Part shown: positions 5,765 to 25,088 of the stretch, one piece after another
Layout: every line of letters begins with the position of its first letter
Position numbering within the stretch: the first letter of the stretch is position 1
From: a virus
IMG/VR virus record: IMGVR_UViG_3300036716_001916
Coordinates: 1-26,686 of that record
Length of the DNA: 26,686 nucleotides
Strand: one strand, 5' to 3'
Notes under the pieces: model-generated
What the model was told of the DNA's origin: nothing
The model's input: the letters and a program-made list of their open reading frames with translations, nothing else
Databases searched by the model: none
Program-made: the position numbers and the translations under genes

Positions 5765-5772
5765 AATGTATA

Positions 5773-5901
5773 CACTCCTTACAGTGTTTTATTTTTTAAT
5801 ATAGGTATATTATACCATAAACATATAGCTTTGTACATGCTTTTTTTCACTTTTTTTCATTTATTTTCATTTTGTGTGACCATAGTGATATATTAGTCAC
5901 A
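5773..5901 (-). repeat. Direct repeat copy A (promoter and leader unit)
   Basis: A 129-bp copy of the sequence at 8158-8285. The first 47 bp (Shine-Dalgarno, leader, -10) are identical. A promoter spacer of about 14 bp differs. The remaining 67 or so bp (-35, A-tracts, dyad) differ at about two positions. It begins immediately after the TAG stop of the CobT-like gene. The far end holds a TGTGAC/GTCACA inverted repeat, and A-tracts about 10 bp apart precede the -35 like an UP element. Confidence 0.9.
5809..5837 (-). promoter_or_regulatory. Early-type promoter for the AAA+/DUF3310/gp45 operon
   Basis: On the minus strand: TGTACA (5837-5832), 17-bp spacer ending in TATGG, TATAAT (5814-5809). 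It lies inside repeat copy A. The start point near 5802 gives a leader of about 37 nt containing AAGGAG within a small ACACT/AGTGT hairpin. Confidence 0.85.
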
Positions 5902-8154
5902 CTATGCTACCGCTTTACCAAATCTTGTTAATAACACTTTGTTTGTTTTCTTTGATTTAGCTTGTTTTTTAAACGCGTTCCTAACTTGAGCAGTTGAAGA
6001 ATCATCATTTAAATCAGACATTGGTTCATCGCCTTGAGCAGATAGCGTTGCTCCACCTTTAATGATGTAATATTCATTATAACCTAATACATTATTTTTA
6101 ACTACGCATTTATTTTTGCGAAATTCTGTATTTGAGTTTTTCTTAAGATCTTTCCATTCTTGTGAATAATAATCAATAAATTGTGATTTTTCTGAATCCA
6201 TAACAGCAGATTGAATTCTATTATAAAAATGTCTATTGTCATCTGCCATAAAAAACCCTAAAGTATTAGTATTATATCTTTTTTGAATATTGAGTAATAA
6301 CTCTTTGGTTGCACCCTTTGAGCTATCACTTGTCTTGATATTTTTACCATCAATAGTAATATTTAATCCAGATCTACCCCAACTATTTGTTTCTGTTCTT
6401 TTACTAGTAAGCTTATGATCATGTATAACATGCATTTGATTAGTATCTCCATCAGATAAACATACAAAATTCATTTTTTCAACACCATGTTTCATTTTGA
6501 ATTTTTTAATGAGATGATGAGATACAACTAAAGCAGCATTTAATGGAGTTGATCCCCATTGTTCATACTGACTAGTAAATCCACTATTCCAAGTGGATGA
6601 CTTTATTTTACAATGTAAGTTAGCCATTGCAGTAATATATTCATTTTTCTTCAAATTTGAAGAAACCAATAAAGGCATTGAAAGATCATCTATGGATAAA
6701 GATGCATCTTTAAATTTTTTAATATTATTGTTTACTATTGTGTTATGAGATTCAATGAAAGCTTTACGTTCAACATCATCATCTTCTCTATGATGCCAAT
6801 TAACAAAATTTGGGTTTCCAGTAGTAAATGCATATACTTCAAAAGGTATATTTACTGCTTTACAAAATACTATTAAATGCATCAATTGATCTAAAACATA
6901 TGGCATTGATTCACACATTGAACCACTATAATCGATAATCATAATCATACCATGATTTTTAGCATCTGCTAATGAAGTAACTCTTGCAAAAATATCTTCA
7001 TTATATTTATAACTATGTACTTTATTAACATCTAAAGAACCAGTTTTAGCTGTAGTAGCTCTTTGCCATTGATGTGCTGCCTTTCTCATTTCAAATTCTT
7101 TAATAGCAAAATTAACATTCTTACGAGTATCTTTCATATATTGCTTAAATTCTAAATTACGATTTTCTAAAGACTTATTATTATTTAGTTTTGTTTGATA
7201 TAATCTATCTTTAGCTAATGTTTTATAATCGATTACAATTTCGTTAATAAGCTCTTTAGATATACCTGAAGAATATAATACTTCATGACCTAAATGATCT
7301 TTTGCAACTAATCCACTTTCGTTTTCTCTAAATATTGTATCAGTTATTGAGGTATCTTCATGATCATTATGTATAGGTTCTTTAGAAACAATATTATTTT
7401 TATCTTCTTTTGCTTCTTCATTTTCTTTTGCTTCTTGAGTTGAAGAATTTTCTTCTTCCTCATTTTGAGTAGAAGAAGTTTCTTCTTGAGGAGAAGCTTC
7501 TTCAGAATCCATATCATCATGACCTTTAGGTATATCATCATTACCTTTAGGTAATAGTGATGGTTCAACATTAGGTAATAGTGCGGGTTGATCCATTAAT
7601 TCTTTTTGATTTTCTTTAGTATATGCAAGAACATCTTTTACTAATTCAACTACTTCTTCAAACGTTTCTGTTAACATTGCTCTGTCAAATAAAGCTTGCT
7701 CTAGTGTATTAAATCGTATATCAATTTCTTTACCTAATTTTGCTTTAAGGTTAATTTTATCGATAAGCTTAACTTGTTGCATCTTTAATTTATCTAAATC
7801 ACCAAAAAAGTTATCAGCAGAAAGCTTTTTATATCCTCTTAAGAAAGGACCAACAAGACCAGGATATGCTCGACGTACTAGTTTTTCAATACGAGCATCT
7901 TCAATTACATTAATATAAGATCTAGGACAACCTTTTAATTTTTCAGGAGAATCGTGCCATCCTTCAAAGGGGGTAAATAATGCATGACCAACTTCATGAC
8001 CAATTAACAAATCATATACATCTTTACCATGATCTGCCCATTGCGGAAGTCCCAAAGTTCTGTTTTGTATGTCAAACCAAGCGGTATGATAATTACCATG
8101 TTGAATAGTAATATTCTCTTTTGCGAGTAATTTACCTATTGTTTTGTTTTGCAT
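5902..8154 (-). CDS. CobT-like HExxH metalloprotease/VWA protein
   Basis: A 750-aa three-part protein. The N-terminal domain has the zinc motif HEVGH (about residues 53-57) and a later NVIEDARIE (E near 85) that fits a gluzincin third ligand. A central linker (about 215-260) is very Glu/Ser-rich. The C-terminal VWA domain has the MIDAS motif IIDYSGSM (D near 408) and a later CLSDGDTNQ. CobT of cobaltochelatase also joins an EDARIE-like region to a VWA domain, and marine T4-like homologues are often called 'peptidase'. With the AAA+ partner it forms a MoxR/VWA pair. Target and protease activity are unproven. The start is ATG at 8154, after AAGGAG; a GTG at 8160 falls too close to the Shine-Dalgarno. 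It has its own promoter (8194) and is exactly bracketed by direct repeats. Confidence 0.85.
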   Translation of the reverse strand: MQNKTIGKLLAKENITIQHGNYHTAWFDIQNRTLGLPQWADHGKDVYDLLIGHEVGHALFTPFEGWHDSPEKLKGCPRSYINVIEDARIEKLVRRAYPGLVGPFLRGYKKLSADNFFGDLDKLKMQQVKLIDKINLKAKLGKEIDIRFNTLEQALFDRAMLTETFEEVVELVKDVLAYTKENQKELMDQPALLPNVEPSLLPKGNDDIPKGHDDMDSEEASPQEETSSTQNEEEENSSTQEAKENEEAKEDKNNIVSKEPIHNDHEDTSITDTIFRENESGLVAKDHLGHEVLYSSGISKELINEIVIDYKTLAKDRLYQTKLNNNKSLENRNLEFKQYMKDTRKNVNFAIKEFEMRKAAHQWQRATTAKTGSLDVNKVHSYKYNEDIFARVTSLADAKNHGMIMIIDYSGSMCESMPYVLDQLMHLIVFCKAVNIPFEVYAFTTGNPNFVNWHHREDDDVERKAFIESHNTIVNNNIKKFKDASLSIDDLSMPLLVSSNLKKNEYITAMANLHCKIKSSTWNSGFTSQYEQWGSTPLNAALVVSHHLIKKFKMKHGVEKMNFVCLSDGDTNQMHVIHDHKLTSKRTETNSWGRSGLNITIDGKNIKTSDSSKGATKELLLNIQKRYNTNTLGFFMADDNRHFYNRIQSAVMDSEKSQFIDYYSQEWKDLKKNSNTEFRKNKCVVKNNVLGYNEYYIIKGGATLSAQGDEPMSDLNDDSSTAQVRNAFKKQAKSKKTNKVLLTRFGKAVA

Positions 8155-8157
8155 ATC

Positions 8158-8285
8158 CACTCCTTACAGTGTTTTATTTTTTAATATAGGTATATTATAC
8201 CATATGGACCGGGTATGTACATGCTTTTTTTCACTTTTTTTCATTTATTTTCACTTTATGTGACCATAGTGATATATTAGTCACA
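8158..8285 (-). repeat. Direct repeat copy B (promoter and leader unit)
   Basis: The second copy of the 129-bp unit (here 128 bp), ending a few bases before the ATG of the CobT-like gene. It differs from copy A mainly in the promoter spacer (16 bp and GC-rich here, 17 bp there). The 85 nt between this copy and the gp46 stop (8286-8370) contain no ORF or clear signal that I can support. Confidence 0.9.
8194..8221 (-). promoter_or_regulatory. Early-type promoter for the CobT-like gene
   Basis: On the minus strand: TGTACA (8221-8216), 16-bp spacer containing ACCCGGTCC and ending in TATGG, TATAAT (8199-8194). The shorter spacer is the only one in the set and may weaken or strengthen it relative to the copy at 5809. 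Confidence 0.82.
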
Positions 8286-11922: not shown

Positions 11923-11955
11923 AATATAATCTCCATTTTTAGCTTGTTAGGGTAT

Positions 11956-11984
11956 ATTATACCATATTTTTTAAGCTTTGTACA
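11956..11984 (-). promoter_or_regulatory. Early-type promoter for the gp55-gp47-gp46 operon
   Basis: On the minus strand: TGTACA (11984-11979), 17-bp spacer ending in ATATGG, TATAAT (11961-11956). The start point near 11949 gives a leader of about 27 nt with a GGAG Shine-Dalgarno before gp55. Confidence 0.85.
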
Positions 11985-12027
11985 TAGTTAAATTAAAAAA
12001 TTAATGCGAAATAAATGAAAATAAACA

Positions 12028-12091: not shown

Positions 12092-12478
12092 TTAATGATA
12101 TGTCTTCTTTGGAATTGTATCAGAGGGTAATATATCTTCTAGAGTTTCACTCATGTATCTTTCAAGTTCATCAGATAGTTCATCTACAGATCTTATATCT
12201 GCAGGTGACATTGGTGTTGTTACTGCCTTTAAGTAAGTATGCTTTACATCTTCATCAATTAAAACATGTGCCATAATATCAGAATCAAGTATAGTATATA
12301 GTGTTTGAGATGAAAATGAAAACCATGGACGTAATGAATAGCTTCCTATAATGGTTTCCGTAACTATTACAGGTCTTTCTACTATAACTCTGCCTTGTTC
12401 CTTTTTATGAACCAAAGCCAATATATTGTCGCCATTAATAAGCTTAAAATGTCGTATGTTCATATCTTCTGGTTTCAT
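12092..12478 (-). CDS. Small protein with an Sm-like N-terminus
   Basis: A 128-aa protein that I recognise only as a type found beside uvsW in marine T4-likes. Its N-terminal part (RHFKLINGDNILALVHKKEQ, then GRVIVERPVIVTE) reads like an Sm/Hfq-type beta-barrel opening; the middle has RPWFSFSSQTLYTILDSDIM; the C-terminus (ELSDELERYMSETLEDILPS) is acidic and helical. RNA binding would follow if the Sm fold is right, but I rate that as a guess. It is ATGA-coupled to the uvsW stop (12478-12475) and is the last gene of the operon. The plus-strand promoter at 12028 fires into its 3' end. Confidence 0.75.
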   Translation of the reverse strand: MKPEDMNIRHFKLINGDNILALVHKKEQGRVIVERPVIVTETIIGSYSLRPWFSFSSQTLYTILDSDIMAHVLIDEDVKHTYLKAVTTPMSPADIRSVDELSDELERYMSETLEDILPSDTIPKKTYH

Positions 12479-13953
12479 AGGTTTATCTCATTTATATTGT
12501 ATGTAAATTTCTCTTTACTGTATATATTTATTCTTTCTGCCGCATGCTTTAAAGTATAATTCTTTTGAGTTCTCCAATGCAAATCATCAGCAATATCATA
12601 TACTATAGTATTTATACCATCTCCACTCTTACGGAGACCTCTACCAATAGATTGTAAGACTCTTATTTGTGATTTAGAAGGTGATGCAAATATTATATTA
12701 TGTAACTTTTTAATATTAATACCGGTAGAAAATGTTCCCATACTCGCAACAATAATAGCATTATTTTCATTTTCAGTAATAGATCTTATATTTTCTCGTG
12801 TATCAACGTCAGTTTCTCCACTCACATAAAATAATTTTTGATTTTTAGCTACCTTTTTCTTAAGAATATCATGTAGAGGTTTACCATGTTTTTCTACATA
12901 TTGAAATAACACCAATACATTTCCACGTAATTTAACGGTGAGATCTGTTATAAATTCATTTCGTGGACTATGTCCAACAAGAAAATCTAATTCTTCTTGA
13001 TATTTTGCTTTTGCTATGCTACGCATATATCTATCTGCATACTTAAGCAATAATATGCGTATTTCTAATTGAGCTAAATCATCTGCATCCATTAATGATT
13101 TTGTTGATGTAACTCTGTGCACAGGTCCAAATAAACCTTCTAATACTAATTGATGGGTTTGGGTACCATCTAAAGTTCCTGTGGTGCCAATTCTGTATTT
13201 AGCATTAACACATTTTTCTAATATAGCAGTGAGAGATTTAGCTTTAAAATTATGAGCTTCATCTCCTATAACCATACCATATGAATTAAACCAAGACAAA
13301 TTCATTTTATATACAGATTGCCAAGTTGTTATAATAACTCTATGTTTTAAATTTATTTTTTCTTTACCAGAATATATTCTATGACAATTGTTATCAACAT
13401 TCCAACTATCGGTTGAACTATAATCTCCAAAATCAGTATACATTTGTTCTACTAATGATGTTGTAGGAACCACTATTAATATGTTTTGTTTATCATTAGA
13501 TTCTAAAAAATGTCTTATCATTAAATATATCATTAATGATTTACCGCTTGCAGTAGGAGATAACAATAAGGATTTATTATTAGATAGAGCATGTTTAATA
13601 CCTTCTATCTGGTACCCGCGCGGGTGGATAGGCGCGCCCGCGGCCGTCAGGGGCAGGCGGGAGATAAGTTCATCTACATTTTCTGTGCTGGTAGGTTCAT
13701 AATCTGTAATTATTTTATAACCACGTTCTTGTGCAAACTCTTTTAAATAATTAAATAGTCCACAATAGATTTGTTTTTTACGATAATCAAATAATCTAAT
13801 CTTACCATCCCATACTCTATTACGGTATGCCGGCATAAATTTATATCCAGGTACATAAAAACAGAAGTGTTCTGATAACTCTCTTTCTGTACTGGATTCG
13901 CAACTAATTTGTAAAAAACTTTCGTTTAATTTAGATATTACAATCTGTTCCAT
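12475..13953 (-). CDS. uvsW: UvsW recombination helicase
   Basis: SF2 DNA/RNA helicase that branch-migrates recombination intermediates and unwinds R-loops, helping the switch to recombination-dependent replication. The 492 aa compare with 503 in T4. The N-terminal domain (1-100) has GYKFMPAYRNRVWDGKIRLF, equivalent to the T4 NWDGRIRLL region. Then follow a Q-like motif PRGYQIEGI (111-119), Walker A SPTASGKS (132-139), DEAH (231-234), an IGTTGTLDG motif III, YVSGETDVDTR, and motif VI QSIGRGLRKSG. Residues 97-115 are encoded by a 57-bp block of GC-rich codons unlike the rest of the gene (see 13609-13665). It is the third gene of the uvsY operon. Confidence 0.96.
   Translation of the reverse strand: MEQIVISKLNESFLQISCESSTERELSEHFCFYVPGYKFMPAYRNRVWDGKIRLFDYRKKQIYCGLFNYLKEFAQERGYKIITDYEPTSTENVDELISRLPLTAAGAPIHPRGYQIEGIKHALSNNKSLLLSPTASGKSLMIYLMIRHFLESNDKQNILIVVPTTSLVEQMYTDFGDYSSTDSWNVDNNCHRIYSGKEKINLKHRVIITTWQSVYKMNLSWFNSYGMVIGDEAHNFKAKSLTAILEKCVNAKYRIGTTGTLDGTQTHQLVLEGLFGPVHRVTSTKSLMDADDLAQLEIRILLLKYADRYMRSIAKAKYQEELDFLVGHSPRNEFITDLTVKLRGNVLVLFQYVEKHGKPLHDILKKKVAKNQKLFYVSGETDVDTRENIRSITENENNAIIVASMGTFSTGINIKKLHNIIFASPSKSQIRVLQSIGRGLRKSGDGINTIVYDIADDLHWRTQKNYTLKHAAERINIYSKEKFTYNINEINL
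13609..13665 (-). other. GC-rich in-frame patch inside uvsW
   Basis: 44 of 57 bases are G or C (77%) in an AT-rich gene. Read as uvsW codons, 18 of 19 end in G or C, encoding ISRLPLTAAGAPIHPRGYQ, while codons on both sides end mostly in A or T. The frame is intact and residues still fit the UvsW family. It contains several palindromes, including ACCCGCGCGGGT, GGCGCGCC and CCGCGG. Origin unknown: recombination, recoding or assembly error. Confidence 0.9.
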
Positions 13954-13959
13954 TTAAAT

Positions 13960-14883
13960 TTAATCTTTAAACCTACTTATATTAAAAATTTCATTCAACC
14001 TATTCTTTGTGCTTTCAACATCATAACAAAGATAATCATTAATGTACCAATATATAAATTTCATGGCCTTTTCTTTTTTATGCCAACTTATATCATTACA
14101 TAATTTAGGTAATTGAGTTAAGCTTTGTAGCTGTTTAGTTACCCAATGATACTCCGGAAAACCATATGATATAATAGGTACTTCATGCATTAAACATTCT
14201 ATTCCTGCAGTACTATTATCTAATATTGCAACTCGAGTATGCGGAAGGAAGTCATGTATAGATTCATATCCATCTCTTACATCTATTCCATCTTGAATCC
14301 ATTTATCTACAATATCTTTTTGTTTGCCTCTTAGCTTTAATCTTGGATGAATCTTTACTACGATTGGAAACTCTGTTACCTGTGCATATAATCTTTCTAC
14401 TATCAATGTAATACTTTCCCAATGACCACCTAAACCAAATCCTTTTACAGTTTCATCATCGGGCATCTGGCCGATAACTAATATATGCTCTTTTGGTACA
14501 TCTTTAGCCTTTCTCCATTTGAGTAATATAGAATCATCCCATTTATTAGATCTTTGATTAATTAGAGTTTCTATTTTACTCCAATCCATATTGTTCTTAG
14601 AATTTAAATGAGAATACATTATATCTGGTTCATATGGTTCTTCGAAAGCCAATTTAGAAGCATTAGCATATCCAATAGTATCAATTGCAAAATGTTTTGA
14701 AGTAGGTGCTGTAGGTTTAACAAATAACACATTCGAATAATTCATCTGAGTTAAATCAGTATGATTAAATATATTAAGATCTTCTGGATAATCTATTTGT
14801 TCCAATGCTTGTTTTATACACGTACGTGCATAATCGAAGTTCCCTTTCCATTCAAACTTATGATCATATATTTTATATGCCAC
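13960..14883 (-). CDS. KpsC/KpsS-like sugar transferase
   Basis: A protein of about 307 aa resembling the capsule-synthesis (KpsC/LpsZ, KpsS) transferase family that adds Kdo to lipid or polysaccharide acceptors. Matching stretches are LVIGQMPDDETVKGFG (the family GQ-x-x-DD motif), FPIVVKIHPR (K-x-HP) and AILDNSTAGIECLMHEVPII followed by SYG (nucleotide-sugar site and Ser/Thr-Gly-E pattern). It would act in the cytosol; the acceptor is unknown, and surface modification of the host or of a virion protein are options. The first ATG is far inside; GTG at 14883, after GGAG, is the likely start, and a TTG at 14904 is an alternative. It sits oddly between uvsY and uvsW, overlapping uvsY by 11 nt. 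T4 has no equivalent there. Confidence 0.7.
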   Translation of the reverse strand: MAYKIYDHKFEWKGNFDYARTCIKQALEQIDYPEDLNIFNHTDLTQMNYSNVLFVKPTAPTSKHFAIDTIGYANASKLAFEEPYEPDIMYSHLNSKNNMDWSKIETLINQRSNKWDDSILLKWRKAKDVPKEHILVIGQMPDDETVKGFGLGGHWESITLIVERLYAQVTEFPIVVKIHPRLKLRGKQKDIVDKWIQDGIDVRDGYESIHDFLPHTRVAILDNSTAGIECLMHEVPIISYGFPEYHWVTKQLQSLTQLPKLCNDISWHKKEKAMKFIYWYINDYLCYDVESTKNRLNEIFNISRFKD

Positions 14884-15316
14884 TGGTAAACTTTCTCCAT
14901 TCAATCATATTCTTAATGTTCTGATGTCTCCATTTAATATTCTCTAACATTTCTTTAAGAACACTTGTAATTTCTTCTAAATATGCAATTTTGGCTTGGT
15001 GTTCTTGAATAATTGGATCTGCATCATAATATTTATCTAAGTCTCCTTTGAGCACAGTATTACCATGTAAAGGATCATATTCCCATCCTTTTGAATCCAT
15101 TTCTTCTTGAGTTAATTTACCGCCATAATGATTAAACTTATCTTTAAGTATAACCTTATATTCTAATTGAGCTTTCTTTAACCGCATGCGATTTGAACTT
15201 AAGAGCTCTAAGTATTTAGAATGTAAATTTGCAGATTGACGAGAAGCTTCGTCTAAGGCCATTTCATCTATTTGTGAATCTTTCTTCCACATTTCTAGAA
15301 TAGTATCTAAATCCAT
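14873..15316 (-). CDS. uvsY: UvsY recombination mediator
   Basis: Mediator that loads the UvsX recombinase on gp32-coated single-stranded DNA. The 147 aa match T4 (137). The family pattern is visible: ALDEASRQSANLHSKYLELL, RLKKAQLEYKVILKDKFNHY, the YYDADPIIQEHQAKIAYLEE segment, and a C-terminal IKWRHQNIKNMIEWRKFTSG that matches the T4 helix ending in HIQDMRAFEAGK. I prefer ATG at 15316 over 15328 because GGAG sits 6-7 nt upstream of it and overlaps the codons after the first ATG. It is first in the operon from the promoter at 15346-15374. Confidence 0.9.
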   Translation of the reverse strand: MDLDTILEMWKKDSQIDEMALDEASRQSANLHSKYLELLSSNRMRLKKAQLEYKVILKDKFNHYGGKLTQEEMDSKGWEYDPLHGNTVLKGDLDKYYDADPIIQEHQAKIAYLEEITSVLKEMLENIKWRHQNIKNMIEWRKFTSGI

Positions 15317-15345
15317 AATTTTCTCCATATTATAGTTAACTGTTT

Positions 15346-15374
15346 ATTATACCACAGTTTCACTCAAAAGTACA
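15346..15374 (-). promoter_or_regulatory. Early-type promoter for uvsY-GT-uvsW
   Basis: On the minus strand: TGTACT (15374-15369), 17-bp spacer ending in TGTGG, TATAAT (15351-15346). It has one mismatch in the -35 relative to the others. It lies between the late gene ending at 15382 and uvsY. Confidence 0.8.
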
Positions 15375-15381
15375 TGTTTTT

Positions 15382-15846
15382 TTATTTAAATTCAAAGTAC
15401 GTATATTTAAATGTCACAGAAGCTTGTAAATACTCAACGTCATTAGCTATTGATGTAAAATCAGCTCCACTTAAAGATGTAGGAAAACAATCTTTAAATA
15501 TAATTTCCTGTGTAACATTATTGTGTGAAGATAACACACTCAGTGTAGCATCGGAAGTGAAAGATTCATTTGTTGTAATACTATTATGCATCCAATCAAA
15601 CGTTTCTTTATAGTTTTCCATATTCTCTGTTATATTAAATGTAATAGTTAAATCATCAAATTCTAATCTATCACCGGTAAAACCTAAATTAACACCCTTA
15701 TATGGAGTATCAACTCCTGCTAAAGATATACTTGGCAATGTTACAGAATTACAAAAATATTCTAAATTAGGATACAAAGTATTATCAATAGAAAATTTAA
15801 ATCCTATTGGAGTTAAAAAATTCTTATTTGCTGTTAACGTTGCCAT
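15382..15846 (-). CDS. Tail-tube-fold structural protein (gene 3 position)
   Basis: A 154-aa protein that I place in the gp19-like tail-tube fold group. It has NFLTPIGFKFSIDNTLYPNL, the strand-rich LEYFCNSVTLPSISLAGVDT, FTGDRLEFDDLTITFNITEN, and FDWMHNSI, echoing gp19's order of CK-(I/A)-P, AGDRxFDD/ENV and a FxxWMN motif. It is a paralogue of gp19 at 21134-21661 and sits where cyanophages place gene 3 (tail completion), so it may cap or terminate the tube. The assignment to gp3 is uncertain. The start has GGAG 8 nt upstream. It overlaps the preceding 100-aa gene by 23 nt, suggesting coupling. Confidence 0.7.
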   Translation of the reverse strand: MATLTANKNFLTPIGFKFSIDNTLYPNLEYFCNSVTLPSISLAGVDTPYKGVNLGFTGDRLEFDDLTITFNITENMENYKETFDWMHNSITTNESFTSDATLSVLSSHNNVTQEIIFKDCFPTSLSGADFTSIANDVEYLQASVTFKYTYFEFK

Positions 15847-16126
15847 TATTTATTCTCCATTTTTCTTTTAACCAAGATTGAAACTTTACAGTGTATTCTT
15901 TTTGTGTATATCGCGTTGAACCAAAAGCAAGATTTTCATCACAATTATCTAACCACATTCTAGTACAAAACTGATTATATGACACTTTTTCACTATCTGA
16001 AAAAGCAATATTGTCTGAAGGATTTAAAGCAAAGGCTGAAGCAATCTTCGAATTAACATCGTCATCAACATTACCATCCCAATTAAGATCAATCATTTCT
16101 AATTGTTGCGTTTTATAATTTTTCAT
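15824..16126 (-). CDS. Unknown 100-aa late protein downstream of gp23
   Basis: I do not recognise this protein. It contains LEMIDLNWDGNVDDDVNSKI, YNQFCTRMWLDNCDENLAFG and a basic C-terminal FQSWLKEKWRINNGNVNSK. Tryptophans and Asp clusters are notable; there is no membrane segment. The start is ATG at 16126. Six more codons upstream, from TTG at 16144, are in frame but lie within the promoter. No Shine-Dalgarno precedes the ATG; the TATAAATA box at 16132-16139 places the predicted transcript start at or next to the A of the ATG, giving a leaderless mRNA. It overlaps the tail-tube-fold gene, so it may be a virion or assembly protein of the tail. Confidence 0.7.
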   Translation of the reverse strand: MKNYKTQQLEMIDLNWDGNVDDDVNSKIASAFALNPSDNIAFSDSEKVSYNQFCTRMWLDNCDENLAFGSTRYTQKEYTVKFQSWLKEKWRINNGNVNSK

Positions 16127-17555: not shown

Positions 17556-18707
17556 TTATTTTGAGTTAGTAATAGCTTGTGTGTATCTGCTCATATTATC
17601 TGAAAGATCAACCGGAGCTGAATCATTTCCTATAACTGCATCTACTTCAGATTCTGTTTCACTTACATCAGACTTGAAGTATGATTCTTTGATAGTAGTT
17701 ACTTTCATAGTGAAAGTTTCTAGATCTTCAAAATCAATAGATTCAACTAATGATGCGAGTTTCTCAGCTTCTGTATCAGCAAGCCCTGAAGAAGCTTCTC
17801 TTATTACTTGAGCGCGCGCATATGTTTGCGTAGTTTCATGTAACTTGATGTTTTCTTCTGTGGATTTATTGAGTTGTTCCTCTAGTTCAGCAACTTGCTC
17901 GGCCATATCGTCGATTAAATCTGCTTTACCTTCTGGTACTTCAATGTAATGTTCCTTAAAGACAGTTTGTAAAGAAGCCATAAAGTCTTCAGCAATCTCA
18001 GTCCTAAGACCAGTACTTACTGCTACTTCATTTTCTTTCATCCAAGATTCTACAACATAGTTCAAGTAGTTATCTACTTTTTCTACGATAGTCTTTTGAA
18101 TATCACCAACTTCTTCTTCAAGGTTTTGCGCGTATTCGCCTTCTAATCTATCGATTTCTGCACCTAATTTTGACTTAAGTGTTGCTTCGAAGATTGCTTC
18201 AGCTTTTGCTCTGAATCCTTCAGACAATGTAGCTTCCTCAGATACTAATGCATCTAAATCTTCTGAATAATCAAATTCCACTGCTTCTGCTTTCGCAGAT
18301 GCATCACTAGGTTTAGCTTTAGGATCAACAGCTTTCGGTGCTTTCTTAATAGCTTTATCTAGGGAACCATCATCTTCAGACTCATCGACTTTATTCATCT
18401 TTGCAAACATAGCTTGCGCTTCATGTTTTTTTGCCTTTTTAAGCATCTCAACTGCAGCGTTAATAACACCAGCTTTAGTAGAAGGAGTTTTAAAAGCAGG
18501 AGCAGTTTCTTCTACTTCTTCTTTTTCTTCTTCTTCTTTTTTAGCTTCTGTTACTTCTCCAGCATCAGCGTCTTCAGAAATTTCCTCGTTTCCAACTTCG
18601 TTTTCAACGAGCTCTTCTGAAGTTTCCACTTCAACTTGCTCTGCATCTTGAGATTCGCCTAAATCGACTACAGTTTCTTCAACTGCTTTTGTGTCTAATT
18701 CTGACAT
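17556..18707 (-). CDS. gp22: Prohead scaffold protein gp22
   Basis: Main internal scaffold of the prohead, degraded by gp21 during maturation. The 383-aa protein is strongly acidic at its N-terminus (Glu-rich tract about 20-70), has Lys/Ala-rich segments in the middle, and long helices toward the C-terminus (ADLIDDMAEQVAELEEQLNK then STEENIKLH). It is longer than T4 gp22 (269 aa), mainly from the acidic N-terminus; this extended form is common in marine T4-likes. The assignment rests on composition, helical content and the 21-22-23 order. It has an AGGAG start and runs directly into gp23. Confidence 0.9.
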   Translation of the reverse strand: MSELDTKAVEETVVDLGESQDAEQVEVETSEELVENEVGNEEISEDADAGEVTEAKKEEEEKEEVEETAPAFKTPSTKAGVINAAVEMLKKAKKHEAQAMFAKMNKVDESEDDGSLDKAIKKAPKAVDPKAKPSDASAKAEAVEFDYSEDLDALVSEEATLSEGFRAKAEAIFEATLKSKLGAEIDRLEGEYAQNLEEEVGDIQKTIVEKVDNYLNYVVESWMKENEVAVSTGLRTEIAEDFMASLQTVFKEHYIEVPEGKADLIDDMAEQVAELEEQLNKSTEENIKLHETTQTYARAQVIREASSGLADTEAEKLASLVESIDFEDLETFTMKVTTIKESYFKSDVSETESEVDAVIGNDSAPVDLSDNMSRYTQAITNSK

Positions 18708-23474: not shown

Positions 23475-25088
23475 CTAGAAAACACCGTCATGTCTTCCAT
23501 TAGGTGTTTCGAACCATACTTGACCATCTTCGTCTACTTCATACTTAGGTTTTTCTGGATCATCGTTAACAAAACCAAACGGAATTACATCATCCTGAAT
23601 AGCTTTAAGTTGTTCGTTATATAACATCTTCTTCATTTCTATATCTGTCATACCCAAAAAGATGTCAGTTGTTGTAAACCAACCAAATAATACTAGATTC
23701 ATCATTAAATCATCATGATTACTAAGTGAAGCTTCAAAAGATTGACCTTTTGCAACAAATGTACTCATTTCTACTATTGTGTTTGCATCTACAATGTTTA
23801 TTTTTCTTTGTTCTATTAAATCTTTTATATTAGAACAACCAATACGCTTAACTCTACGAGTCATAGTAGCACCAATTGCTCCTCGTTTAACAGTCGATTC
23901 TACAAACATATTTTCATATTCTAAATCATAATATAATCCATTACATACCAATTGGCCAGCATCATTAGATTCTATAATCACATAAGCTTTATTAAACAAA
24001 TATGCGTATTTATAAATTAGATCTGGATATAATATAGGCGATATAATATTATCTCTAAAGACCGCAACTTGTTGAAATGGATTTGTACTAATATCAATAA
24101 TAGTAAAAGTTGAATAATCTTGTCCTCTACCTCTGGCCACATCAACACACATTACATATTCATGATCTTGCAAAGGCATTTCATAAATATATACGTTTTC
24201 TTTTACCATAACCGGTTCATGCATCTTTTGTGCAAGCAAAGAATTTGCATCTATTAGAGTCCCGCCCCGGCCTAGGAAGGTATTACCAAATTCTTGATCG
24301 AACTGTAATTCTGAAGTATTAGCAATTGTTAATGCTTTCCAAGTTTCATCTCTACCCGGAACATCCCACCAATCAACTCTAAACGCTTTAAATTCATTTT
24401 CTTTTGAAACTGCACCTTCCCATAATTTGTGATATACATTACCAACACCATTTGCAGTAGAAGTAACAATTATTTTAGTGTCACTACCTGATGAAATAAC
24501 AGGATATGTTGAAGTATAGAATTCTGCATCATTTTCTACAAAAGCAAACTCATCAAGAAACAATAAATTAACAGATAAACCCCTAATTGAAGAAGCAGAT
24601 GTTGCAGTTGCAATAATTCGTGAGTTATTTGAAAATTCTATTGAGCCTTTATTGAGTGCCTTTGTGCCTGGTTGCAAAAAGAATGGAATATTTTCTAATG
24701 CTAAAGTAACACGAGCTAACATTTCTCTTGCAACTACACCCTTGTTTGCCAAGATTGCAATAGTTTTTTCAGAATGAAATAGAGCATACCATAAAAGATA
24801 TACTACACTAGATATTGATTTACCGCTTTGTCGACATGCTAAACATATACTGAAACGATTAGCATTAAAATGATTAAACATTTCTTCTTGGTATGGATAT
24901 AAATCAAATGGAACTAAACCTTCATCAAGAGATATAATTTTTACATAAGTTTTTGCAAAATATGCAGGATTATCCATGCACTTTTTGTATTCTCGAACTT
25001 GTTCCGCAGTAAAACCTTCTTCAAGGCCATCTCGCTTTACATTAACATTACCTAAATAACCAAATTCGTTATTTTTAATCTTCGCCAT
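23475..25088 (-). CDS. gp17: Large terminase (packaging ATPase-nuclease) gp17
   Basis: Packaging motor and headful nuclease, 537 aa (T4 610). FDLYPYQEEMFNHFNANRFS precedes Walker A ACRQSGKS (84-91); Walker B is LLFLDEFAF (DE at 179-180) with TSTANG (motif III) shortly after; the FLGRGGTLID linker precedes the nuclease domain, whose first acidic residue is D316 in MCVDVARGRGQDYS; VIESNDAGQLVCNGL and SNHDDLMMNLVLFGW carry further nuclease residues. It overlaps gp16 by 14 nt and has a poor Shine-Dalgarno, so coupling is likely. A short GC-rich run (24261-24277) lies in the FLGRGGT linker. Confidence 0.97.
   Translation of the reverse strand: MAKIKNNEFGYLGNVNVKRDGLEEGFTAEQVREYKKCMDNPAYFAKTYVKIISLDEGLVPFDLYPYQEEMFNHFNANRFSICLACRQSGKSISSVVYLLWYALFHSEKTIAILANKGVVAREMLARVTLALENIPFFLQPGTKALNKGSIEFSNNSRIIATATSASSIRGLSVNLLFLDEFAFVENDAEFYTSTYPVISSGSDTKIIVTSTANGVGNVYHKLWEGAVSKENEFKAFRVDWWDVPGRDETWKALTIANTSELQFDQEFGNTFLGRGGTLIDANSLLAQKMHEPVMVKENVYIYEMPLQDHEYVMCVDVARGRGQDYSTFTIIDISTNPFQQVAVFRDNIISPILYPDLIYKYAYLFNKAYVIIESNDAGQLVCNGLYYDLEYENMFVESTVKRGAIGATMTRRVKRIGCSNIKDLIEQRKINIVDANTIVEMSTFVAKGQSFEASLSNHDDLMMNLVLFGWFTTTDIFLGMTDIEMKKMLYNEQLKAIQDDVIPFGFVNDDPEKPKYEVDEDGQVWFETPNGRHDGVF

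Follow-up and report, generated by a model that had tools for sequence, protein, structure and literature searches.

Mosaic and micro-recombinant genes occur in phages and bacteria, and the GC-rich patch described here, which lies inside a phage uvsW gene, resembles them in being a short in-frame replacement with sharp edges and a foreign composition. It differs from them in its age and in the retention of its composition, and in that no donor was found. A second point of comparison is provided by conserved rare-codon clusters, with which the patch shares a rare synonymous run, a fixed position in homologues and extreme %MinMax values (Chaney et al. 2017, PMC5438181). That survey found such clusters to be under-enriched close to the boundaries of domains in genes of E. 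coli and human, and the word "phage" does not appear in its text. The uvsW patch departs from these clusters in that it is built of GC-ending codons in an AT-rich phage gene, is restricted to one clade, and involves amino acid changes as well. A search of the literature found no paper on a GC-rich synonymous stretch in phage uvsW.

The protein itself is homologous to T4 UvsW (PDB 2OCA, 1RIF) over its whole length (E=1e-91). The preliminary description had aligned the patch with a stretch of T4 UvsW ending in IEPHWYQ, and the phmmer alignment to 2OCA, which reads ...KRIEPHWYQ, bears this out. A patch of such strength at this site is found, among the relatives examined, only in the carriers described below.

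A GC-rich patch in a T4-type uvsW gene

The window, by which we mean the whole 26,686-base virus record analysed here, contains a uvsW gene on the minus strand (12475..13953) that encodes a 492-residue T4-type DNA/RNA helicase. The UvsW N-terminal domain and the SF2 helicase domains are present, with matches to UvsW_N (PF21241), ResIII (PF04851) and Helicase_C (PF00271) above the Pfam cut-offs. The gene has T4-like neighbours in the record, namely those for uvsY (14873-15328, near uvsW; Pfam), the tail tube, the major head protein and the late sigma factor. Between uvsW and uvsY there is a gene of 314 codons with a Capsule_synth (PF05159) match (13960-14904, minus strand). Elsewhere in the window we note a pair of near-identical direct repeats (97-98%; 5769-5901 and 8154-8285), a four-copy family around TATATTATACCA...GTACATG (178-222, 5803-5847, 11950-11994 and 15340-15384) and an 80-nt inverted pair (15994-16073 and 18165-18244), all of which are possibly promoter or terminator elements. 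There is also a 12-base run composed entirely of G and C (CCCGCCCCGGCC, plus strand, 24261-24272) inside an AT-rich coding region.

The patch occupies positions 13609-13665 of a gene that is otherwise poor in G and C (31% GC for the gene, 44 of 57 bases in the patch), and 18 of its 19 codons end in G or C when read in the gene frame (ATC TCC CGC CTG CCC CTG ACG GCC GCG GGC GCG CCT ATC CAC CCG CGC GGG TAC CAG); the sequence and coordinates given in the preliminary description are exact. The first of these codons, codon 97 (ATC, 13663-13665, minus strand), lies beyond what we regard as the core, codons 98-115 (SRLPLTAAGAPIHPRGYQ; 13609..13662, minus strand), in which 17 of 18 codons, spanning 54 bases, end in G or C, compared with about one in five genome-wide. 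The core falls on the same codons in all four of the four carrier lineages. The edges had been described as sharp with A/T-ending codons on either side, and the flanking codons are indeed of this kind, GAA CTT before the patch and ATA GAA GGT ATT AAA after it. No other part of the window comes near this composition: the best 57-bp segment in the 26.7 kb is at 13607-13663 (44/57 G+C, 0.77), the next best reaches 0.58, and the maximum in 300 first-order Markov simulations of the window is 0.63. A sliding comparison of codon usage, as proposed at the outset, gives the same picture; measured against the codon usage of the window itself, the patch stands out as its most extreme run of rare codons, with a %MinMax of -86.8 against -34.3 for the next lowest segment. 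The codon CTG, for example, is used four times in all of the window's genes outside uvsW codons 96-125, and twice in the patch. Three palindromes that had been singled out are all present, but such words are common in GC-rich sequence anyway.

The patch is not a purely synonymous recoding. The encoded peptide, ISRLPLTAAGAPIHPRGYQ, aligns without gaps to those of relatives such as TNGLSLTAGGNKIQPRDYQ, its amino acids are shifted toward Ala, Gly, Pro and Arg, and G replaces the usual D of PRDYQ in all carriers. In the predicted UvsW structure (mean pLDDT 85) the patch covers the linker that joins the UvsW N-terminal domain to the first RecA-like domain. The former (aa 9-84; 13702..13929, minus strand; Pfam and predicted structure) lies upstream of the patch, and its last predicted strand, aa 80-83, comes just before it; the latter (ResIII, aa 109-261; 13171..13629, minus strand; Pfam and predicted structure) begins within it. 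The patch thus spans the end of a predicted helix at aa 93-99, the linker proper, and part of the first helix of the RecA-like domain (aa 113-125, PRxYQ), within which it ends.

Carriers and descent of the patch

The patch is real, and is common to a clade of marine T4-like phages with at least four related members. Seven further IMG/VR contigs, drawn from seven datasets and four lineages, have it in identical or homologous form. Two of these contigs, L082 (3300008961) and L083 (3300031757), are 99.95% and 99.99% identical to the window over 10.1 kb and 8.0 kb respectively and carry the patch unchanged; one of the sites at which L082 differs from the window is a few codons downstream of the patch, and L082 is therefore not a copy of the same assembly. 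Homologous patches at the same codons are found in L086 (with L166), L164 and L165 (with L220), whose uvsW genes are 78-81% identical to that of the window. The right end of the L220 contig falls inside the GC-rich patch, which suggests that the patch may hinder assembly.

The left edge is identical in all carriers, the patch starting with TCC CGC CTG CCC CTG, and the window lineage has a right edge of its own. Codons 116-122 (13588..13608, minus strand) are A/T-ending there (ATA GAA GGT ATT AAA CAT GCT) and GC-rich in L086, L164 and L165 (for example CTG GCG GGG GTG AAG CAC GCA), so that in these the patch is longer by about seven codons (CTG/CAG GCG/GCA GGG GTG AAG CAY GCA). When codons 91-131 are left out, the uvsW protein tree recovers the carriers as monophyletic with a support of 1.0, in the order (L086,(WIN,(L165,L164))), where WIN is the window, and their nearest relatives are without the patch; L087 and L100, of the neighbouring group, have no more than TGCCCCTG in common with it. 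By this tree, codons 116-122 are the right third of the ancestral patch, and their loss in the window lineage is the derived state. Because the carriers form one clade in a tree from which the patch was left out, both a recent transfer and a marker are ruled out. The recent micro-recombination raised in the preliminary description fails by the criterion set there, since the block has come down to the relatives by descent, and the distances between the patches of the four lineages track the gene tree. We consider it very likely that the patch has been inherited vertically and maintained.

Retention of GC in the patch

Given a G or C at a third codon position in one carrier of a pair, the other member of the pair also has G or C in 78-94% of cases within the patch, against 21-39% in uvsW outside it, depending on the pair (Fisher p 3e-4 to 7e-8). 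When the comparison is restricted to four-fold sites, the figures are 77-100% in the patch and 0-19% elsewhere in the gene. Exchanges between G and C account for 13 of the 29 changed third positions in the patch and for 12 of 462 elsewhere, counts that are not independent, as the pairs overlap. Synonymous sites in the rest of uvsW have thus been heavily turned over while the patch has kept its GC. Neutral decay from an all-GC ancestor, simulated with a simple F81 model on three taxa, for which branch lengths were estimated from 99 four-fold sites of uvsW outside the patch and bootstrapped, predicts that 21.8 (sd 3.6) of 39 sites would be G or C; 36 are observed, and none of 20,000 runs reaches this number. 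Decay would be faster, not slower, under a stronger GC-to-AT mutation bias. Synonymous-codon conservation among the carriers peaks in the gene at aa 92-104, with a ratio of 1.53 (gene mean 1.01, sd 0.17), and general synonymous constraint at the patch site is absent in non-carrier relatives (ratio about 0.9-1.0). The composition has been kept despite the mutational erasure that is to be expected, and therefore something is probably selecting for the patch; its GC content is very probably held by selection. As judged by the retention tests and the simulation, the placement of a rare-codon run at the same codons in four lineages is beyond chance, with all four lineages belonging to one clade.

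Origin of the patch

The patch probably had a single origin on the stem of the carrier clade, in which 18-24 codons were replaced in frame by a high-GC sequence. The sharp edges, the shift toward Ala, Gly, Pro and Arg, and the G in place of D in PRDYQ suggest that high-GC coding sequence was brought in, and not that codons were recoded step by step; the likely mechanism is micro-import through short homologous or microhomology-directed recombination. Searches of phage records, viral contigs and bacterial genomes with a limited set of peptides and with exact and degenerate DNA patterns yielded no donor, and a search of genome contigs with the patch peptide yielded no relative. Higher-GC uvsW genes retrieved through the SPTASGKS motif include T4-like examples of 50-58% GC, none of them with LPLTAAGAPIRPRGYQ. 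As no donor was found, we infer import from composition only, and we lean modestly toward it. Of the micro-recombination with a high-GC relative that had been put forward initially, an ancient in-frame import is thus plausible, and a recent one is not. We also considered a homing-endonuclease site; the homing endonuclease of Klebsiella phage Roth04 lies downstream of uvsW and not inside it, and the split uvsW genes of two other phages have no insertion at the patch site.

Possible reasons for persistence

The reading that we tentatively prefer is that the patch is an old, vertically inherited and selectively maintained rare-codon run in the linker, which arose by one in-frame replacement and may be kept for translation pacing. 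The ribosome exit tunnel holds some 30-40 residues, so that slow translation at the patch would coincide with emergence of the N-terminal domain. A run of very rare codons would slow the ribosome as this domain, with its last strand at aa 80-83, leaves the tunnel, and the slowing would help the domain to fold first; persistence for this reason is the weakest step of the reading. Translation pacing may be the most plausible selective cause of the persistence of the patch, a suggestion we make with some diffidence. Three observations speak against it: the survey of conserved rare-codon clusters cited above found them under-enriched where domains meet, the window lineage has lost the right third of the patch, and uvsW has a second GC-rich hotspot (aa 377-391) that in the predicted structure is away from a domain boundary.

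This second hotspot emerges from a wider comparison. In 93 distinct relatives, GC3 corrected for amino acids has two peaks along uvsW, and 45 of the 57 extreme GC3 segments start at aa 80-139 or 340-399. Codons 377-391 (VSGETDVDTRENIRS; 12781..12825, minus strand) are ordinary in the window, and are strongly GC-rich in L099, L150, L042, L104, L108, L096 and L097, which belong to a different clade, and in L025/L090. These patches, which lie over VSGETDVDTRE at about codons 377-391, consist of rare codons and have a G/C retention signature like that of the window patch. Differences between L104 and L108 that cluster in this hotspot were considered as a conversion tract and are not unusual for the pair. 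A scan of related fragments revealed few other GC-rich segments of this sort. One in-frame patch is in a 1942-residue open reading frame, at about 2095-2165 of L188 (the first 18.4 kb of the L082 contig), and encodes ASGGYAPLAGPALTGAPTAPTAA, which we take to resemble a widely shared phage tail-fibre motif. It is conceivable, and we put it forward tentatively, that patches at uvsW aa ~97-122 and ~377-391 in marine T4-like phages arise repeatedly and are then held by nucleotide or codon selection, whether for translational pacing or for a hidden nucleic-acid signal.

The recurrence of GC-rich patches at two uvsW places across many lineages is also what would be expected if an ancient micro-import had been followed by continued exchange, with short tracts from high-GC relatives renewing the GC at hotspots and no selection involved. 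The GC-rich patch that the same phage species has in a tail-fibre-like gene and the existence of T4-like uvsW genes of 50-58% GC fit such exchange as well. However, the searches returned no matching donor, the divergence of the patch among the four lineages mirrors that of the gene, and every carrier has the same left edge, and we regard continued exchange as doubtful.

The patch could instead be a nucleic-acid element that requires a GC-rich sequence, for example a binding site for a protein, a signal for replication or packaging, or an RNA hairpin. Two features speak for it: both TCCCGCCTGCCCCTG and GGGTACCAG are invariant across all carriers, and the palindrome CCCGCGCGGG of the window has CCCCCGGGGG as its counterpart in L164/L165, where the change is symmetric. 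Against this, the folding energies of the patch are ordinary by comparison with dinucleotide shuffles (z 0.58 to -1.51), the covariation term in the RNAalifold result for the patch alignment is unfavourable and a single pair is compensatory, Rfam has no match for the patch, and its variable sites tolerate many G/C exchanges. An RNA hairpin or other conserved RNA structure is thus unsupported. Of the GC-rich structural or RNA element under selection that was suggested at first, the selection is borne out by the retention of GC and the conserved RNA structure is not, and we think a nucleic-acid element of any of these kinds unlikely. An antisense or alternative-frame gene was considered too; an antisense frame of 52-53 codons is open in all four lineages and is not conserved as protein, with only 27 of 53 residues agreeing between the window and each other carrier.

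A neutral relic, in which a GC-rich import simply has yet to decay, would account for the sharp edges and for the right third already lost in the window lineage, but at the gene's own four-fold rates decay never left as much GC as is seen, and G-to-C and C-to-G exchanges are strongly over-represented among the changes, making this reading improbable. Finally, an assembly chimera, a marker or deliberate recoding, each entertained in the preliminary description and each in keeping with the artificial look of the composition and of the restriction-site-like palindromes, is excluded to the point of being negligible by the occurrence of the patch in contigs of several independent datasets and of diverged versions in four lineages of one clade.

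Implications

The effect is large and confined to 54 bases, and so simple recoding can tell selection for codon speed from selection for binding of the DNA or RNA, and both of these from repeated micro-recombination. The uvsW patch is a compact natural case in which composition, beyond protein sequence, has seemingly been held in a phage gene over long evolution.
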